Part shown: positions 56,320-64,000 of the stretch, in pieces | Layout: each line of letters begins with the position of its first letter | Numbering within the stretch: position 1 is the stretch's first letter | Assembly (NCBI RefSeq): GCF_001579845.1 | Contig: NZ_CP007440.1 | Coordinates: 6,284,029 to 6,348,028 of the forward strand | Source: Rhodoplanes sp. Z2-YC6860 | GTDB taxonomy: Bacteria > Pseudomonadota > Alphaproteobacteria > Rhizobiales > Xanthobacteraceae | Length of the DNA stretch: 64,000 nt | Direction: 5' to 3' | Program-made: the position numbers and the translations under genes | Notes under the pieces: model-generated | Seen by the model: only the letters and a program-made list of their open reading frames with translations | Database searches by the model: none | What the model was told of the DNA's origin: nothing

Positions 56320-57180
56320 TCACGCCTGATATTTGGTTTCCTTGCTCCAGTAGTCCGGGAAACCCACGATGCCTTGCAGATCGGTGAACGACACCGCCTG
56401 GGGCTGCGCCGCCTTTGAACCAGGTTTCAACGCGTCGAGCGTCCCCTGAATGGCGGAGACCGCAGAGGACAACAGCATCACCGGGTAGAGCGCGAGCTTG
56501 TAACCGATCTCGTGCAGTTTCGCCGGCGGCAGCACCGGCGTCTTGCCGCCCGGCACCATGTTGGCCATGCAGGGCTTTGTCATGACCGAGCAGAACCGGC
56601 GCATCTCGTCCTCGGTTTCGGGCGCCTCGAAGAAAATGATGTCGGCCCCTTCGGCTTCGAAATCCATGCAGCGCGCCAGCGCCTCGTCGAAGCCGTGCAC
56701 CGCGCGGGCATCGGTGCGCGCCATGATGAGAATATCGGTGTTGGCGCGAGCGTCCACCGCGGCACGGATCTTCATCCGCGCCTCCTCGCGCGAGATCACC
56801 TGCTTGCCGCGGGTGTGGCCGCATTTCTTCGGGCTGACCTGATCCTCGATCATCACGCAGGCGGCGCCGGCGCGCGCATATTCGATCACCGTGCGCTGCA
56901 CGTTCAGCGCATTGCCGTAGCCGGTATCGCCATCGCCGATCACCGGCATGTCGCCCGCCGCCGCGCAGCAGTTGCGCAGCGTGTCGAGCATCTCGCTGAA
57001 CGAAATGAGGCCGGTGTCCGGCAGGCCGAGCCGCGCCGCCGACACCGCAAAGCCGCTCATGAACGTGACCTTGAAGCCTGCAGCCGCGACGAGCTTCGCC
57101 GACAATCCGTCATAGCAACCCGGCATGACGTCGATATGGGGTTGAGCGAGCACTTCGCGCAGGCGTTGGGCGGGTGTCAC
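56320..57180 (-). CDS. Isocitrate lyase/PEP mutase-family enzyme (oxaloacetate decarboxylase-like)
   Basis: The 286-aa TIM-barrel protein starts at a GTG with GAGGA upstream. It has the metal site GDGDTGYGNA (about 83-92) and the signature QVSPKKCGHTRGK (about 114-126), the PEPM/ICL KKCGH loop with its catalytic Cys. It forms or breaks a C-C bond next to a carboxylate: oxaloacetate decarboxylase, 2-methylisocitrate lyase-like or a related lyase. Exact identity cannot be set. Confidence 0.85.
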   Translation of the reverse strand: MTPAQRLREVLAQPHIDVMPGCYDGLSAKLVAAAGFKVTFMSGFAVSAARLGLPDTGLISFSEMLDTLRNCCAAAGDMPVIGDGDTGYGNALNVQRTVIEYARAGAACVMIEDQVSPKKCGHTRGKQVISREEARMKIRAAVDARANTDILIMARTDARAVHGFDEALARCMDFEAEGADIIFFEAPETEDEMRRFCSVMTKPCMANMVPGGKTPVLPPAKLHEIGYKLALYPVMLLSSAVSAIQGTLDALKPGSKAAQPQAVSFTDLQGIVGFPDYWSKETKYQA

Positions 57181-58081
57181 GGCGTGTCCTCTTTGTGAAG
57201 CAGAACCACCGAACGCTGATCGTCCCGGTGGCTTCCGTCAAGCGTCCGATGGTGTCCGGCGCCCGGCGTTTTTCGTTTTGCATTCTTGCAAATCACGTGT
57301 AGACGCGAATTTGCCTCGTTCGTTGAGAGCGTCATCTAGAGACGTCTATTTGGCGGAGCGGGGTGTGGCGCCTGCAGGCGTGGCTCGTGACCACGTCCCA
57401 GGGTGTGAGGTCATTGTCCGTCCCCGATGAGGGGGCCGCCTTCAGTGGCAGGGCGCGGTCGGGTGAAAGCGGGCGCAAATGCCCCCTGGAGCATGGTGGG
57501 TGAAAGCCCAGCCGGTCCGATCGAATCTCGAACGGTGGCCTCGCAATAAATCGCCACAGTGGAGCGCCGGGAGGCGAGCGGACCTGATCGCAAAGGTCCG
57601 CGGGCGCCCTCGCAAAGCGCCCAGATATCTGCGCCGTCTCGGCGCTCCGCTCCCTCACTCATGTGAGGGGAAGGAAAAGAGAGAGGCGCTGGCCCCGCGC
57701 CTGATCTGAAGGGGGCGATGACGCACGCCTGTATGGATATTGAGGGGACGCGTTGAGGAACGCGGCTGTTTGAAAATTGAATCGGTAATCACCGCCGCCA
57801 GCCCACCCACCGGGTCATTGCCGGGCTTGACCCGGCAATCCATGAGAGGCCGCAGCAAAGGGAATCGTAAGAACATGCGTCGTTGCGTCACCGGATGGGC
57901 CCCCGCGTCAAGCGCGGGGGTGACGACCACCTTTGTTGACGGAGGCGCGGTTCTCTGCACCACACGCTTGGTTCTCTGCCCCAAGCACGCCCGGCGGTAC
58001 GACGCTGTGCTTTGGATGGTTTTACCCAAGAACGACGGTGTGTCTGGTGCGTGCGCCAGCGCAATCCAGGTCAGCACAATT
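57181..58081. other. 0.9-kb region with no convincing gene
   Basis: Open frames here are short and overlap without ribosome sites or recognisable motifs. From 57421 to about 57720 the DNA carries many short hairpin-forming tracts (for example GCGGACCTGATCGCAAAGGTCCGC and GGCGCTGGCCCCGCGCC). This composition differs from coding DNA and looks like a repeated or decayed element or a structured RNA. A double-hairpin repeat follows at 57816-57922. Confidence 0.5.
57816..57922. repeat. Double-hairpin intergenic repeat, copy 3
   Basis: The hairpins ATTGCCGGGCTTGACCCGG (about 57817-57839) and GCCCCCGCGTCAAGCGCGGG (about 57899-57921) are spaced and oriented as in the copies at 50627 and 52923. Confidence 0.75.
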
Positions 58082-59059
58082 CTAGTTTGCCGGTGCGATG
58101 CCGGCCACCTTGAGGGCCGCGGCATAAGCGTCGCGCTCCTGCTTCAAGGCGGCCACAGATTCCTCGAGCGACAGCCCGCCGCGCACGATGCCGAGCTTGC
58201 TCAGCTTCGCGGCAATGTCCGGCGACCTGGCAAAGCTGCTGATCTCCTTGCGCAAAGCCACAGCGATCGGCTCGGGCGTCGCAGCCGGCGCGAAGAAGCC
58301 GTTCCACGACGAGAACTGGAAGCCCGCAATGGTCTCGGCCACCGTCGGAATATCCGGCGCCGCGGCGATCCGCTGCGGCGTGCCGACGGCAATCAGCCTG
58401 ATCTTGTCGCTGTCGATGTGCGGCAGCAGCGACGACGAATTGCCGAAATAAAGATCGACCTGCCCCGCGATCAGATCGGAGATTGCCTGCGGCTCGCTCT
58501 TCTGCGGCACCATCACCAGGTTGATTCCGGCCTGTGCGAACAGCAGCACCGGAGCGAGATGACTGATGTTCTGCGTGCCCGCGACGGTGAAGTTGAGCTT
58601 GCCGGGATTGGCCTTCGCGTAAGCGATGAACTCGGGCAGCGTCCTCACCGGCAATTCGCGCCGGATTGCAATCATCTGCGTGCCGGTGCCGATGTTGGAG
58701 AGCGGCACGAGCTGCTTGCCTGGATCGAAGCTCAGCTTCTGCACCTGCGGCGTCAGCACGACAACGGATGCTGCCGCGAACATCAGCGTGTAGCCGTCGG
58801 GCGCAGCACTCGACACCTGAGCGGAGCCGACCGCGCCGCCGGCGCTCGGCCGGTTCTCGATCACGAAGGTCTGGCCGAACTTGGCGGTGAGATGCTGCGC
58901 GCCGAGCCGCGCCATCATGTCGGTGTTGCCGCCGGCGCCGAACGGCACGATGACGGTCACCGGCCGGCTCGGCCAGTCGTCGGCAAGGGAGACGCTCGCA
59001 GTCTCCCCGAGCACCGCGAGCGCGGACAGCAGCAAAGCCAGGCGACCAACAGAGAGCAT
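58082..59059 (-). CDS. Bug-family (TctC-like) periplasmic solute-binding protein
   Basis: The protein has 325 aa from the ATG at 59059 and a signal peptide ending ASVSLADDWPSRP. Bug motifs: PVTVIVPFGAGGNTDMMAR, FVIENRPSAGGAVGSAQV and DGYTLMFAA. It is a single-gene unit divergent from the URC operon, with a 331-bp gap. It might bring in a pyrimidine-related or other acid; that is inference. A short variant start at 59119 has no signal peptide at its N-terminus. Confidence 0.9.
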   Translation of the reverse strand: MLSVGRLALLLSALAVLGETASVSLADDWPSRPVTVIVPFGAGGNTDMMARLGAQHLTAKFGQTFVIENRPSAGGAVGSAQVSSAAPDGYTLMFAAASVVVLTPQVQKLSFDPGKQLVPLSNIGTGTQMIAIRRELPVRTLPEFIAYAKANPGKLNFTVAGTQNISHLAPVLLFAQAGINLVMVPQKSEPQAISDLIAGQVDLYFGNSSSLLPHIDSDKIRLIAVGTPQRIAAAPDIPTVAETIAGFQFSSWNGFFAPAATPEPIAVALRKEISSFARSPDIAAKLSKLGIVRGGLSLEESVAALKQERDAYAAALKVAGIAPAN

Positions 59060-59390
59060 GTCATTCCCCTGTTTCTTGGGAGGATGCCTGTGCGGCCGTG
59101 CCTTGTCGCGCAGGCCCATCCCTTCAGAGTTAGCTGCAGTGCAGCAAGCAACTCCCGCGCCAGATCACCCCACAAGTCCCGCCGGCCCGACGTTAACCGG
59201 CTGATCAGAAAAGAAGTTCTCCTACCCTGTAGCGGCCGGCCGAGAGAGTGGCTATATTGTTTTTTTAGTGGGTGGTCGAAGCGTCTGGTCGCGTCGCCCC
59301 CGCTAAATAGTCAAAACCTGATCTGTCGGCCCGTCATCCTGGCGGGCCGAAGACCTTTTTGGAACAGACTGCTTTTTGGAACCGACTGCG
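59060..59390. other. Divergent intergenic region upstream of the URC operon
   Basis: The 331-bp gap must hold promoters for the Bug receptor and URC1. A TATATT box lies at 59253-59258 followed by an eight-base T-tract, but no matching -35 is clear. Its right end is a 17-bp tandem repeat directly abutting the URC1 start. Confidence 0.4.
59356..59389 (+). repeat. 17-bp tandem repeat directly before URC1
   Basis: TTTTTGGAACAGACTGC (59356-59372) is repeated as TTTTTGGAACCGACTGC (59373-59389), with one mismatch and no spacer. The second copy ends one base before the URC1 ATG and supplies its upstream region. Confidence 0.75.
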
Positions 59391-60647
59391 ATGACTGCGC
59401 CGAACCGACCGGACCACATTCGCCTCACCTCGCATCCCGACCCCGAGGGCAAAGCCCGCTTCCCGATCCAATGGGACGCGCCGACCGCGCGCGAGCGCGG
59501 CCCGGTGATCGGCACGGTGTCAAAGCCCGGGCTCCGCAATGTCATCGGCAGCCATGGCGGCTCCTATTCGGTGTATCGCGCGCTCGCGGTGTCAGCAGGC
59601 GCGCTCGACCCGATCCGGCGCCCGGACCTCACCAACACCTATCCCGCGGCCAATATCGGTCCGTTCCCGCAATGGACCGAGCCTGAGAAGATCGTCTCGC
59701 TCGATCCGTGGGGCCATCTCGTCGCCGACGTCTACAAGCAGGAGATCGCCGAAGGCCTCGATATCCGTCCGACCATCGCGATCACCCGCGCCCGCCTCGA
59801 CCTGATCGAGATCCGCGAAGCGCTGGAAGCCGGACGGTTGAAGGCCGACGGCCACTCGATCCATGAGAACGGCTCGGTGTCCGTGGTCAAGGTCGCGATC
59901 GATCCGGTGTGGTACCTCCCCGGCATCGCGCAGCGCTTCGGCACCACCGAGACAACGTTGCGGCGGACTCTCTTTGAACAAACCTCGGGCATGTTCCCCG
60001 AGCTCGTCACGCGTCCCGACCTGCACGTGTTCCTGCCGCCGATCGGCGGCATCACGGTCTATCTGTTCGGCGACATGGGCCGGCTGACCGATCCGCGCAC
60101 CAAGTTCACCTGCCGCGTTCATGACGAATGCAACGGCTCCGACGTGTTCGGCTCCGACATCTGCACCTGCCGGCCGTATCTCATTCACGGCATCGAGGAA
60201 TGCGCACGCGCGGCCCAGCAGGGCGAGTTCGGCATCATCGTCTACAACCGCAAGGAAGGCCGCGCGCTCGGCGAAGTGACCAAGTTCTTGGTCTACAACG
60301 CCCGCAAGCGCCAGGAGGGCGGCGACGCCGCCGCGACCTATTTCGAGCGCACCGAATGCGTGGCCGGCGTGCAGGACGCGCGTTTCCAGCAGCTCATGCC
60401 CGACGCGCTGCACTGGCTCGGCATCCGCCACATCGACCGCTTCGTCTCGATGAGCGACATGAAGCACGACGCGCTGGTCGGCCAGGGCATCGACATCGTC
60501 GAGCGCATTCCGATTCCGCCGGAGCTCGTGCCGCCGGATGCGCACGTGGAGATCGAGGCGAAGAAAGCCGCCGGTTACTACACGCCGGAGCCGCAGAAGC
60601 CCGGGGCCCTCGAGAACACCTCCGGCAGGCCGCTCGAAAAGTACTGA
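59391..60647 (+). CDS. URC1-type GTP cyclohydrolase II-like protein (uracil catabolism)
   Basis: The 418-aa protein combines a roughly 200-residue N-terminal extension with a GTP-cyclohydrolase-II domain. The zinc cysteines are intact: C247-x10-C258-x-C260 (HDECNGSDVFGSDICTC). The catalytic stretch reads NRKEGRALGEVTKFLVYNAR, against RQEGRGIGL in RibA, so the chemistry is probably altered. In the URC pathway this protein acts with URC4 to open the uracil ring of a ribosyl-uracil intermediate. It is followed after two bases by the URC4 gene. A start at the TTG at 59376 is less likely. Confidence 0.88.
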   Translation: MTAPNRPDHIRLTSHPDPEGKARFPIQWDAPTARERGPVIGTVSKPGLRNVIGSHGGSYSVYRALAVSAGALDPIRRPDLTNTYPAANIGPFPQWTEPEKIVSLDPWGHLVADVYKQEIAEGLDIRPTIAITRARLDLIEIREALEAGRLKADGHSIHENGSVSVVKVAIDPVWYLPGIAQRFGTTETTLRRTLFEQTSGMFPELVTRPDLHVFLPPIGGITVYLFGDMGRLTDPRTKFTCRVHDECNGSDVFGSDICTCRPYLIHGIEECARAAQQGEFGIIVYNRKEGRALGEVTKFLVYNARKRQEGGDAAATYFERTECVAGVQDARFQQLMPDALHWLGIRHIDRFVSMSDMKHDALVGQGIDIVERIPIPPELVPPDAHVEIEAKKAAGYYTPEPQKPGALENTSGRPLEKY

Positions 60648-60649
60648 TC

Positions 60650-61876
60650 GTGTCAGAAGCGTCTGCTGCGAAGTCGTTGCTCAATGCCAGTGCCGTGCGC
60701 GAACGCGCGCACAAGATGCTGGCTCTCGGCGACCAACTGCCGAACTTCCGGGTCGATCTCGGCAAGCTCGAAGGCGCGGCGCAGCTCGTGATCGATACCA
60801 CGCGGGCCGCCTATCCGACGCTGGATGTGCCATTCCATTCGCGCTGGCGGCACTTCGACATCGACGGCTTCGACTACTGGAAAGAGATCGACGAGGCGAT
60901 GGCATGGCCGTCACCGGCGGAGCGTTCGCGCACCGCGATGGATCTCGCGATCATCAGCGTGCTGCTCGATGCCGGCGCGGGACCCGGCTGGCGATTCCTT
61001 TACGACGTGAGCGGCGAGTATGTCAGCCGCTCCGAGGGCCTGGCGCTTGCCAGCCTGGTGATGTTCCGCAACTGCGAATTCTCCAAGTGGCCGAGCTATC
61101 CGTTGCGGGTCGACGGCGAAATCCTCGCGGCGCTCACCGAAGACAAGCTCATCAAGGGCTTCCAGGTCACGGCGCAGAACCCGCTGGCGGGCGTGGCCGG
61201 TCGCGTCGCGCTGTTGCGCCGACTCGGTCAGACCGTGCTGGCGAAGCCTGAGGTTTTCGGTACCAAAGATACGCCGCGGCCGGGTGGCATATTCGACCAT
61301 CTCGCTTCGCTCGCCGAGAACGGCCGCATCGCCGCGCCGGTGATCCTGCGCGAGGTGCTGACGCATCTCGGACCGATCTGGCCGTCGCGGCTGACGCTCG
61401 GCGGCATTGCGCTCGGCGACTGCTGGAAGCATGCGTCAATGAAAACCGACGACGCGACCAACGGACTCGTGCCGCTGCACAAGCTGTCGCAATGGCTGTC
61501 CTACTCGCTGATCGAGCCGCTGCAATGGGTCGGCATTGAGGTCACCGACATCGACGGGCTGACGGGCCTGGCCGAATACCGCAACGGCGGGCTGTTCATC
61601 GACACGGATGTGCTCACGTTGCGCGATCCGGCGGCGGCGCAGCGCGAGCACACGGTCGACTCCGAGCTGGTCGTCGAATGGCGCACACTGACGGTGGCGC
61701 TGCTCGATCGTCTCGCCGACGTCGTGCGAACCAAGCTCAACATGGATCGCCAGTCGTTGCCGCTCGCCCGCATCCTGCAGGGCGGCACATGGACCGCCGG
61801 CCGCAGCGTCGCGAAACGCAAGCGCGCCGACGGCGGCCCGCCGCTGAAGATCGTCAGCGACGGCACGGTATTTTGA
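60650..61876 (+). CDS. URC4/urg3-type DUF1688 protein (uracil catabolism)
   Basis: The 408-aa protein starts at a GTG two bases after URC1. It matches the DUF1688 family: [18 protein letters not shown] near residue 25, [41 protein letters not shown] and [16 protein letters not shown] (in outline). URC4 is required for uracil degradation in yeast and bacteria, but its reaction is still unresolved. Its position between URC1 and UPRT supports the pathway assignment. Confidence 0.9.
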
Positions 61877-61889
61877 ATCGGGGGTTACG

Positions 61890-62519
61890 ATGAAAGGCGT
61901 CACTGTCGTCAAGCATCCGCTGGTGCAGCACAAGCTGACCCTGATCCGGCAGACCGGGACTTCGACCAAGTCCTTCCGCGAGCTGTGCCGCGAGCTCGGC
62001 ATCCTGCTCTGCTACGAGATCACCCGCGATCTGCCGCTCGATTGGGTCGAGATCGAAACGCCGATGACCAAGATGAAAGCCCCGGTCATCGCCGGCAAGA
62101 AGCTCGTGTTCGCGCCGATCCTGCGCGCGGGTCTGGCGCTCGTCGAAGGCATGCTCGACCTCGTGCCGGCCGCGCGCGTTGCGCACATCGGGCTCTATCG
62201 CGATGCCGACACCAAGGTGGCGGTCGAATATTATCTGAAGACCCCGGCCGATCTTGCGGCGCGCGATGTGGTCGTGGTCGCGCCTGTCGTGGCGACAGCC
62301 AACACCATGGTGGCGGCGATCGACCGCCTGAAGGAGCGCGGTGCGAAAAGCATCCGTGCCGCCTGCCTGCTCGCGGCGCCCGAAGGCCTCGAGCGGCTTC
62401 TCGGCATCCATCCCGACATCCAGTTGTGGACCGCCGCGATCGACGAGCACCTCGACGAGGACGCCTACATCATTCCGGGCCTCGGCGACGCCGGCAATCG
62501 CGCCTACGGCACCGAATAG
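61890..62519 (+). CDS. upp: Uracil phosphoribosyltransferase with atypical PRPP loop
   Basis: The 209-aa protein has the UPRT N-terminal [27 protein letters not shown] and the uracil-binding [17 protein letters not shown] at the C-terminus (both in outline). The PRPP loop, normally DPMLATGGSA, reads [10 protein letters not shown] at residues 131-140, losing the acidic residue and both glycines. In the URC pathway it makes UMP, the substrate for ring opening. It is 13 bp after URC4. Whether it is active with this loop is an open question. Confidence 0.88.
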
Positions 62520-62603
62520 CGCTTTAGTCGGGTTTGCGCCCCCTCGTCGTGACCGTCTACCATGAGCCAAAGCCTTAAGGCTCATGAACCGTGGGAGGGA
62601 ACG

Positions 62604-63743
62604 ATGAAGCGCACAATTTCTGCGATCGGTGTTGCTGCGGTTTTGTTGACCGCGAACTCGGCCTTTGCCGACATCAAGATCGGCGCGGTGCTGTCGGCGA
62701 CCGGACCGGCATCCTTCCTCGGCGATCCCGAGAAGAAAACCATCGAGATGTACGTCGCCGACATCAACGCCAAGGGCGGCATCAACGGCCAGCAGATCAA
62801 GCTGTTCGTCTATGACGACGGCGGCGATCCCAACCAGGCGCGCACCTTCGCGATCCGCGCGATCGAGGAAGACAAGGTCGACGCGCTGCTCGCGGGCTCG
62901 ACCACGGCGACCACGATGCCGATCATCGCGCTCGCGGAGGAAAACCAGATTCCGCTCATTAACTTCGCTGGCGCCGTGCAAGCCGTGTCTCCGGTGAAGA
63001 AGTGGAACTTCAAGACGCCGCACACCGACCTGATGGCCTGCGAGAAGATCTTCGAGGACCTCAAGAAGCGCAATCTGACCAAGGTGGCGCTCATCTCCGG
63101 CGCTGATGCCTTCGGCAAGTCGATGCGCGACCAGTGCATGACCGTCACCGGCAAGTACGGCGTCGAGGTGCTGCACGAGGAGACCTATCAGCCACGCGAC
63201 AGCGACATGACGCCGCAACTCACCAACATCAAGGCCAAGGCCGGCGTGCAGGCCGTCATCAATCCGGGCTTCGGCCAGGGGCCGGCGATCGTGACGCGCA
63301 ACTACAAGCAGCTCGGCATCAATGTGCCGCTCTATCACGGCCATGGCGTCGCGACGAAGCAGTTCATCGAGCTGGCCACGCCCGCCGCGGCCGAAGGCGC
63401 GCGGCTGCCGGCCGCGGCGCTGCTCGTCGCCGAGAAGTTGCCCGACAGCGATCCACAGAAGAAGGTCGTCGTGTCCTACAAGCAGACCTACGAGAGCAAG
63501 ACCGGCCAGCCGGTCTCGGCCTTCGGCGGACACATGTATGACGGGCTGATGATCCTCGCCGGCGCGTTCGAGCGGGCCAAGAGCACCGACAAGACCAAGG
63601 TCCGCGACGAGATCGAGAAGACCAAGGGCTTCATTGGCACCGGTGGCGTGGTCAACATGAGCCCGACCGATCACCTGGGCCTCGATCTGACGGCCTTCCG
63701 CATGCTGGAAATCCGAAACGGCGACTGGACCCTGGCGCAGTAG
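62604..63743 (+). CDS. Branched-chain-type ABC transporter substrate-binding protein
   Basis: The protein has 379 aa from the ATG at 62604, with GGGAGGGA upstream. A signal peptide ends ANSAFADIKIG. A LivJ/type-1 periplasmic-binding fold follows: GAVLSATGPASFLGDPEKKTIEM, INGQQIKLFVYDDGGDPNQA and VDALLAGSTTATTMPI (in outline). It follows UPRT by 84 bp and precedes the permease gene, so it probably delivers uracil or a pyrimidine-related compound to the URC enzymes. The ligand is inferred from context. Confidence 0.87.
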   Translation: MKRTISAIGVAAVLLTANSAFADIKIGAVLSATGPASFLGDPEKKTIEMYVADINAKGGINGQQIKLFVYDDGGDPNQARTFAIRAIEEDKVDALLAGSTTATTMPIIALAEENQIPLINFAGAVQAVSPVKKWNFKTPHTDLMACEKIFEDLKKRNLTKVALISGADAFGKSMRDQCMTVTGKYGVEVLHEETYQPRDSDMTPQLTNIKAKAGVQAVINPGFGQGPAIVTRNYKQLGINVPLYHGHGVATKQFIELATPAAAEGARLPAAALLVAEKLPDSDPQKKVVVSYKQTYESKTGQPVSAFGGHMYDGLMILAGAFERAKSTDKTKVRDEIEKTKGFIGTGGVVNMSPTDHLGLDLTAFRMLEIRNGDWTLAQ

Positions 63744-63768
63744 CGGTTACCCTCGCCTCACAGGCACC

Positions 63769-64000
63769 ATGCCGGAATTCCTCCAGTTCCTGTTTTCCGG
63801 GCTCACGGTCGGCGCGATCTACGCGCTGATCGCGGTGGGCTTCACGCTGATCTACTCGTCCTCCGACGTCATCAACTTCGCCCAGGGCGAGTTCGTGATG
63901 ATCGGTGGCATGGGCACATTCTTCCTCGGCCTCGCCGGCGTGCCGCTGCCATTGGCGGCGGTGCTGGCTGTCGTTGCCGCCACGGCCGTGGGCCTGCTGC
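63769..64000 (+). CDS. Branched-chain-type ABC transporter permease (LivH-like), cut by the window edge
   Basis: The first 77 residues are visible from the ATG at 63769. They show MPEFLQFLFSGLTVGAIYAL, IAVGFTLIYSSSDVINFAQGEFVMIGG and further hydrophobic segments, the usual LivH start with its INFAQGE motif. The gene continues past position 64000. It is 25 bp after the binding-protein gene in the same unit. Confidence 0.88.
   Translation, partial: MPEFLQFLFSGLTVGAIYALIAVGFTLIYSSSDVINFAQGEFVMIGGMGTFFLGLAGVPLPLAAVLAVVAATAVGLL

Follow-up and report, generated by a model that had tools for sequence, protein, structure and literature searches.

In a 64,000-nucleotide stretch of the closed 8.19 Mb genome of Rhodoplanes sp. 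Z2-YC6860 (hereafter the window; contig NZ_CP007440.1, positions 6,284,029 to 6,348,028), genes encoding URC1, URC4 and a uracil phosphoribosyltransferase (UPRT) are followed on the same strand by a periplasmic binding protein and a LivH-type permease belonging to a HAAT-type ATP-binding cassette (ABC) importer. A first-pass annotation of the window had described URC1, URC4 and UPRT as separated by 2 and 13 bases and followed by binding protein and permease, and this description agrees with the reading frames, start and stop codons and families, all of which were checked; the full series of intergenic gaps from URC1 through to LivH is 2, 13, 84 and 25 bases. The same annotation had suggested uptake of uracil or a pyrimidine by the importer for use through the URC route. 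Taking our best explanation as a whole, it is instead quite probable that trio and importer are two adjacent units and that the importer is not a uracil transporter: its orthologues are linked to phenylacetate genes, the solved proteins most similar to its binding protein are aromatic-acid binders, and the trio is conserved elsewhere in the family without it. The neighbourhood is two ordinary adjacent units, plus a useful lead concerning URC4, whose predicted fold resembles that of a tRNA-base salvage enzyme.

Genomic linkage of the importer

Neighbourhoods were compared across 198 genomes drawn from the bacterial family to which the strain belongs. The binding protein has a match at E 1e-60 in 78 of these, and 16 genomes, this one included, carry both it and DUF1688, the family of URC4. 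None of the other 15 has the two genes close together: in four they share a contig at a distance of roughly 0.4 Mb or greater, and in the remaining 11 they lie on separate contigs, of which some are fragments. The wider surroundings were surveyed in 20 importer regions, mostly those of highest identity, drawn from 17 of the 77 further genomes in which the binding protein was matched, and in the best 80 of 583 confirmed named importer loci, the two sets overlapping in part through shared contigs. All neighbour counts rest on set identity thresholds, and several loci stop at contig ends, where absences are weak. No URC gene was found in the 20 regions (0/20), nor was URC1, URC4 or UPRT found in the best 80 named loci (0/80). 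The observed linkage is to paa genes, with PaaK present in 17 of the 20 regions and 62 of the 80 named loci, together with PaaE (10 and 33), FlK (6 and 16), PaaN (4 and 11) and DpgC (one in each set); a molybdopterin oxidoreductase gene lies near FlK and PaaK in five of the 20 regions, and a molybdopterin gene occurs in 12 of the 80. A region whose binding protein is 85% identical (L063) encodes PaaE, PaaN and PaaK, all above their NCBIfam cut-offs, and the nearest named loci belong to metagenome-assembled genomes labelled Pseudorhodoplanes, Hyphomicrobiales and Pseudolabrys.

Viewed from the URC side, an orthologous importer is absent from all 40 other URC loci (0/40), and PaaK, counted as a control, is present in just one of them, that of the same-genus genome G176. 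The difference in PaaK frequency (1/40 vs 62/80) gives a Fisher p of 1.7e-16, a figure that is only a guide as the loci are related. In G176 a TRAP transporter (L088:6763-9773; DctP by Pfam and NCBIfam, DctM assigned by eye) stands between UPRT and the FlK, DpgC and PaaK genes, in the place of the importer, so that different transporters precede one downstream set. At E 1e-100 the strain is alone among 11 genomes of its genus in carrying the importer. The binding protein and a DpgC-like gene occur together, at E 1e-60, in 14 genomes including this one, and lie no more than 15 kb apart on one contig in six of the 13 others (G038, G092, G111, G123, G166 and G174).

Likely ligand and downstream genes

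The binding-protein model (predicted local distance difference test score, pLDDT, 82.9) has the fold of the aromatic-acid binders of class B-III. The first 14 rows of a Foldseek search are Rhodopseudomonas palustris aromatic-acid binders or PDB entry 7ylt; phenylpyruvate-bound 4dqd ranks first, and complexes with p-coumarate and caffeate are also among them. The best PDB matches by sequence are likewise R. palustris binders and 7ylt, and amino-acid binders rank behind aromatic-acid binders by both sequence and fold. Alike in fold and sequence are the HAAT aromatic-acid binders 4dqd and 3sg0 of R. palustris, CouP (4f8j) and Variovorax IadK2, at 27-31% identity in the fold alignment. In thermal-shift work, R. 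palustris binding proteins of this class bound aromatic acids, as well as other compounds, but no branched-chain amino acids (PMC3223731), and structures of CouP have been determined with coumarate and ferulate (PMC3610893). IadK2 is described as a B-III aromatic-acid binder whose affinity for indole-3-acetate lies in the nanomolar range (PMC10374108); 7ylt is likely IadK2, since 7YLT is counted in that article. The available text of PMC6759348, retrieved in a search on phenylacetate HAAT importers, treats no linked importer, and PMC8556258 concerns another transporter class.

With its two Liv-type permeases and two ATPases the importer has all the parts of a HAAT system, LivM, LivG and LivF following LivH outside the window (L002 = G000:C1:6338000-6357500); LivH and LivG were recognised by NCBIfam, LivM and LivF from reading frames and matches in relatives. 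Judged from homology and linkage, it most likely serves an arylacetate-type acid such as phenylacetate, not uracil. The acid that the binding protein and LivHMGF would import is an aromatic carboxylic one, with phenylacetate, a substituted arylacetate and the corresponding arylglyoxylate as the likeliest choices. It would feed a PaaK-like coenzyme A (CoA) ligase, a FlK-type thioesterase and a DpgC-like dioxygenase predicted to act on arylacetyl-CoA with O2. These three are encoded after the importer, past the window end, and were thus invisible to the window-only view of the first-pass annotation. The nearest PDB chains to the PaaK-like ligase are phenylacetate-CoA ligases (520 bits). The DpgC-like protein can be aligned along almost its entire length (338 bits) with DpgC (2np9, 5kag), the (3,5-dihydroxyphenyl)acetyl-CoA 1,2-dioxygenase, and differs from it in scoring below the equivalog cut-off and in sitting with PaaK-like and FlK-type genes.

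A set of 20 DpgC regions, five of them picked for a nearby importer gene, contained PaaK in 11 cases and URC genes in none (0/20). A molybdopterin/iron-sulfur (FeS) pair lies between FlK and PaaK in L073, L074, L076, L078 and L079; NCBIfam gives it no specific name, and it may be Pad-like. In anaerobic phenylacetate degradation phenylacetyl-CoA is converted to phenylglyoxylate, and a title cited in the same source describes the enzyme of this conversion as a molybdenum-iron-sulfur enzyme (PMC9765128).

Weighing of alternative explanations

Several observations weigh against an arylacetate importer that is independent of the URC genes. Three of the 20 family loci show no aromatic marker, and 13 of the 80 named loci have no PaaK, PaaE, PaaN, molybdopterin gene or DpgC; some of these loci are short contigs. 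Neither the DpgC-like protein (434.8 vs 530 bits) nor the PaaK-like one (603.4 vs 646.3 bits) reaches its curated equivalog cut-off, and each may act on another substrate. PaaA, a subunit of the phenylacetyl-CoA epoxidase of the usual aerobic phenylacetate route, has no match in the genome; that route is thus absent, and the fate of the imported acid would rest on the DpgC-like enzyme. DpgC converts an arylacetyl-CoA and O2 to an arylglyoxylate, and this chemistry, combined with the lack of a PaaA match, makes it plausible that the DpgC-like enzyme has a catabolic role in which arylacetates undergo O2-dependent alpha-oxidation; no catabolic DpgC was among the literature matches listed. The importer also shares the strand of UPRT, 84 bases on, and co-transcription with the URC genes is possible. 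Finally, distant HAAT genes, including a permease, occur in three other URC loci (L085, L089 and L114) and Liv-like ATPase genes in URC loci L098, L112 and L116. With 44 first-look HAAT candidates in 8.2 Mb, about one in ten 20-kb stretches is estimated to hold such a gene by chance, so that the HAAT genes in other URC loci are near expectation.

That shared strand and short distance, the variety of HAAT ligands and the lack of any other importer adjoining the trio in its own genome all favour the proposal of the first-pass annotation, namely that importer and URC genes form one operon and act together in the uptake and use of uracil or another pyrimidine. We consider this very unlikely and reject it, because cross-genome linkage (no shared locus in any of the three comparisons given above) and the nearest solved relatives point to aromatic acids; in addition, the NMT1-type cassette that stands beside URC genes in some relatives (see below) exists elsewhere in this genome. 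An importer for indole-3-acetate or a related plant auxin would accord with the presence of 7ylt among the best sequence and fold matches and with the nanomolar affinity of IadK2, which 7ylt likely represents (PMC10374108). This too is unlikely, given that the closest orthologues lie in phenylacetate clusters with PaaE, PaaN and PaaK and that it is phenylpyruvate-bound 4dqd that ranks first. An ordinary branched-chain amino acid importer is what NCBIfam would suggest, its best match to the binding protein being a branched-chain amino acid binding-protein subfamily (87.3 bits) and the LivH/LivG-type parts matching likewise. Such a function is hard to credit when the scores fall far under the curated cut-offs (87.3 vs 477), leucine-type binders rank behind aromatic-acid binders, and the R. 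palustris proteins of the class bound aromatic acids and other compounds instead (PMC3223731). Import of an arylacetate-type acid is therefore the reading that we retain.

Other candidates for pyrimidine-type uptake

An NMT1-type cassette adjoins the URC trio in five of the 40 other URC loci (L098, L099, L102, L108 and L120) and comprises a LysR regulator gene, NMT1 binding proteins, SsuB/SsuC-type ABC parts, an SDR and an amidohydrolase. The Rhodoplanes genome carries this cassette at 0.725-0.735 Mb (L260:7256-16990, genome about 725255-734989), away from the URC genes; its first NMT1 binding protein matches at 81%, and at 84% over 91% in a second comparison. The cassette is followed here by a further amidohydrolase and a cyanuric-acid/barbiturate-type ring-opening amidohydrolase (557 bits vs a cut-off of 360). 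The NMT1 cassette, of pyrimidine/triazine type, is a better candidate for pyrimidine-type uptake than the HAAT importer, and its ligand could be cyanuric acid, barbiturate or a different ring imide just as well as uracil. A Xan_ur_permease gene at 2.90 Mb could encode a carrier of uracil or purine.

Conservation of the URC trio and the predicted uracil pathway

Family matches of URC1, URC4, UPRT and the binding protein are all far above chance (Pfam scores of 269 bits for GTP_CH_N, 48 for GTP_cyclohydro2, 466.5 for DUF1688 against a cut-off of 25, 226.5 for UPRTase and 187 for Peripla_BP_6). UPRT, which also passes the NCBIfam model upp (247.8 vs a cut-off of 208.35), is the only UPRTase match in the genome. 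One urease alpha subunit scores above its cut-off, at 5.85 Mb, in a search that covered this urease gene alone. The genome thereby encodes the parts that define a URC unit, namely the URC1 domains, DUF1688, UPRT and a means of using urea.

DUF1688 was found in 76 of the 198 family genomes, and the neighbourhoods of 40 of the 75 other positive genomes were examined along with the Rhodoplanes locus. URC1, URC4 and UPRT lie on the same strand with gaps below 400 bases in 32 of these 41 loci. Among the nine exceptions, five have no UPRT in the stretch examined (L107 being cut off there by its contig end), one has it inverted and one has it 1.8 kb away, while URC4 is split in L092 and URC1 lies past the contig end in L088. 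The same three protein families make up URC1/URC4/URC6 of Lachancea kluyveri, whose URC4 is said to convert ribosylurea to urea (PMC7530994), and urg1/urg3/urg2 of Schizosaccharomyces pombe, which are adjacent, as in the cluster here, and uracil-induced (PMC2174524). The system described here differs from those of yeast in being bacterial, in forming a tight same-strand unit and in having its urease gene elsewhere in the genome. From the shared families, the observed conservation of the trio and the presence of urease we infer that the trio is probably a known, little-studied gene set that breaks down uracil. The first-pass annotation had proposed both uptake and use of uracil through URC, and of these the use is upheld on the same three grounds, while uptake by the adjoining importer is not. 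No work on bacterial URC function was among the matches listed in a literature search on URC1/URC4, DUF1688, UTP cyclohydrolase and the URC pathway.

The alignment of URC1 with PDB entries 7eev and 7ej3 spans residues 6-413 (583 bits); these entries are labelled GTP cyclohydrolase II (GCHII) in the PDB, and we take them to be UTP cyclohydrolase structures. URC1 has a Cx10CxC motif at residue 247, presumably the zinc site, and is a probable UTP ring-opening enzyme. A role for URC1 as a riboflavin enzyme was considered and rejected: the protein has GTP_CH_N, and there are two other GCHII-domain genes in the genome. A title on UTP cyclohydrolase appears among the references of PMC12507026. In the route that we propose, UPRT would convert uracil to UMP and, after phosphorylation, URC1 would open the pyrimidine ring of UTP; URC4 would then free urea from the ribosylurea so formed, or from its phosphate, by cleaving the N-glycosidic bond, and urease would complete the route. 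Every substrate, the order of the URC reactions and the chemistry of URC4 in this scheme are predicted from family membership, comparison with yeast and predicted fold.

Predicted fold and chemistry of URC4

By sequence URC4 has no solved relatives in the PDB, as its sole row is at chance level (E 0.29) and a profile search returned 0 matches. An AlphaFold2 model built from 38 sequences is confident (pLDDT 93.7, pTM 0.92), and a Foldseek search of the PDB with this model gave 11 chains at E <=0.001, every one belonging to DUF2419/Qng1, the enzyme of queuosine-5'-monophosphate salvage (7u07, 7u91, 7ugk). These matches have E values of 1e-8 to 5e-7 and a probability of 1.00, template modelling (TM) scores of 0.71-0.74 by target and 0.57-0.62 by query, and root-mean-square deviations of 4.8-5.4 Å. 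The likeness is one of fold, at 15-18% identity; Pfam assigns URC4 to DUF1688 only, and its sequence profile does not place it in Q_salvage. A search for PF10343 relatives matched 0 of 299 genomes, the control being likewise silent, so that this negative carries no weight.

Qng1 is an N-glycosylase, and the fold match makes a ribosylurea N-ribosidase the natural reading of URC4. We put at about an even chance the model-based assignment of URC4 as an N-ribosidase with the Qng1 fold, which would convert ribosylurea, probably in the form of its phosphate, to urea and ribose (phosphate). This reading agrees with the yeast account. Among the papers retrieved in the open-access literature searched, which excludes subscription papers, none mentions DUF1688 or URC4, and no statement of a link to Qng1 was encountered.

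Gene arrangement and flanking features

The features of the locus are collected in Table 1. The 84-base gap between UPRT and the binding-protein gene, which contains a perfect inverted repeat, joins the importer less tightly than the members of the URC trio are joined to one another. This repeat (one match vs a chance mean of 0.08; hairpin z -2.66) is possibly an operator or a hairpin; it is not present upstream of orthologous binding-protein genes (10/10 examined) and is not among the sites of a terminator scan. The number of terminator-type sites in that scan is not above chance (three vs 3.3 in shuffles).

Table 1. Features of the URC and importer locus (positions are those of the window unless stated otherwise)
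Feature	Position	Strand	Remarks
URC1, GTP-cyclohydrolase-II-like with GTP_CH_N domain	59391-60647	+	ATG start, TGA stop; Pfam
URC4, DUF1688	60650-61876	+	GTG start, TGA stop; Pfam
UPRT, uracil phosphoribosyltransferase, URC6 counterpart	61890-62519	+	ATG start, TAG stop; Pfam, NCBIfam
Perfect inverted repeat, UPRT/binding-protein gap	62561-62586	.	8-base arms, 10-base loop
Periplasmic binding protein of HAAT-type ABC importer	62604-63743	+	ATG start, TAG stop; Peripla_BP_6
LivH-type permease	63769-64000	+	truncated by window end; NCBIfam
FlK-type thioesterase, DpgC-like dioxygenase, PaaK-like ligase	L002:13107-16279 (genome 6351106-6354278)		past window end; DpgC-like gene on opposite strand

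Upstream of URC1, on the same strand and 41 bases before the gene, a hairpin of 11 pairs with a run of T after it lies at 59326-59355; it is a site of the type counted in that scan and can be read either as an old terminator or as a leader attenuator. Divergent from URC1, on the minus strand at 56320-59059, are a gene of the PEP-mutase/isocitrate-lyase family and one for a TctC binding protein. Both are kept upstream of the URC genes in the same-genus genome G011, and the PEP-mutase gene is kept in G134 (L083, L086).

Implications

The tempting assignment of a branched-chain-type importer to uracil is replaced here by a better-supported one, and the neighbouring PaaK-like, DpgC-like and FlK-type set suggests that O2-dependent alpha-oxidation of arylacetates may take place in catabolism. 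If our reading of URC4 is true, a poorly understood step of the URC pathway would gain explicit chemistry, and a tRNA-base salvage enzyme would be tied by descent to pyrimidine catabolism. The Qng1-like fold makes this unexplained step concretely assayable, and, as the trio is common in the family, bacterial URC is open to genetic test.

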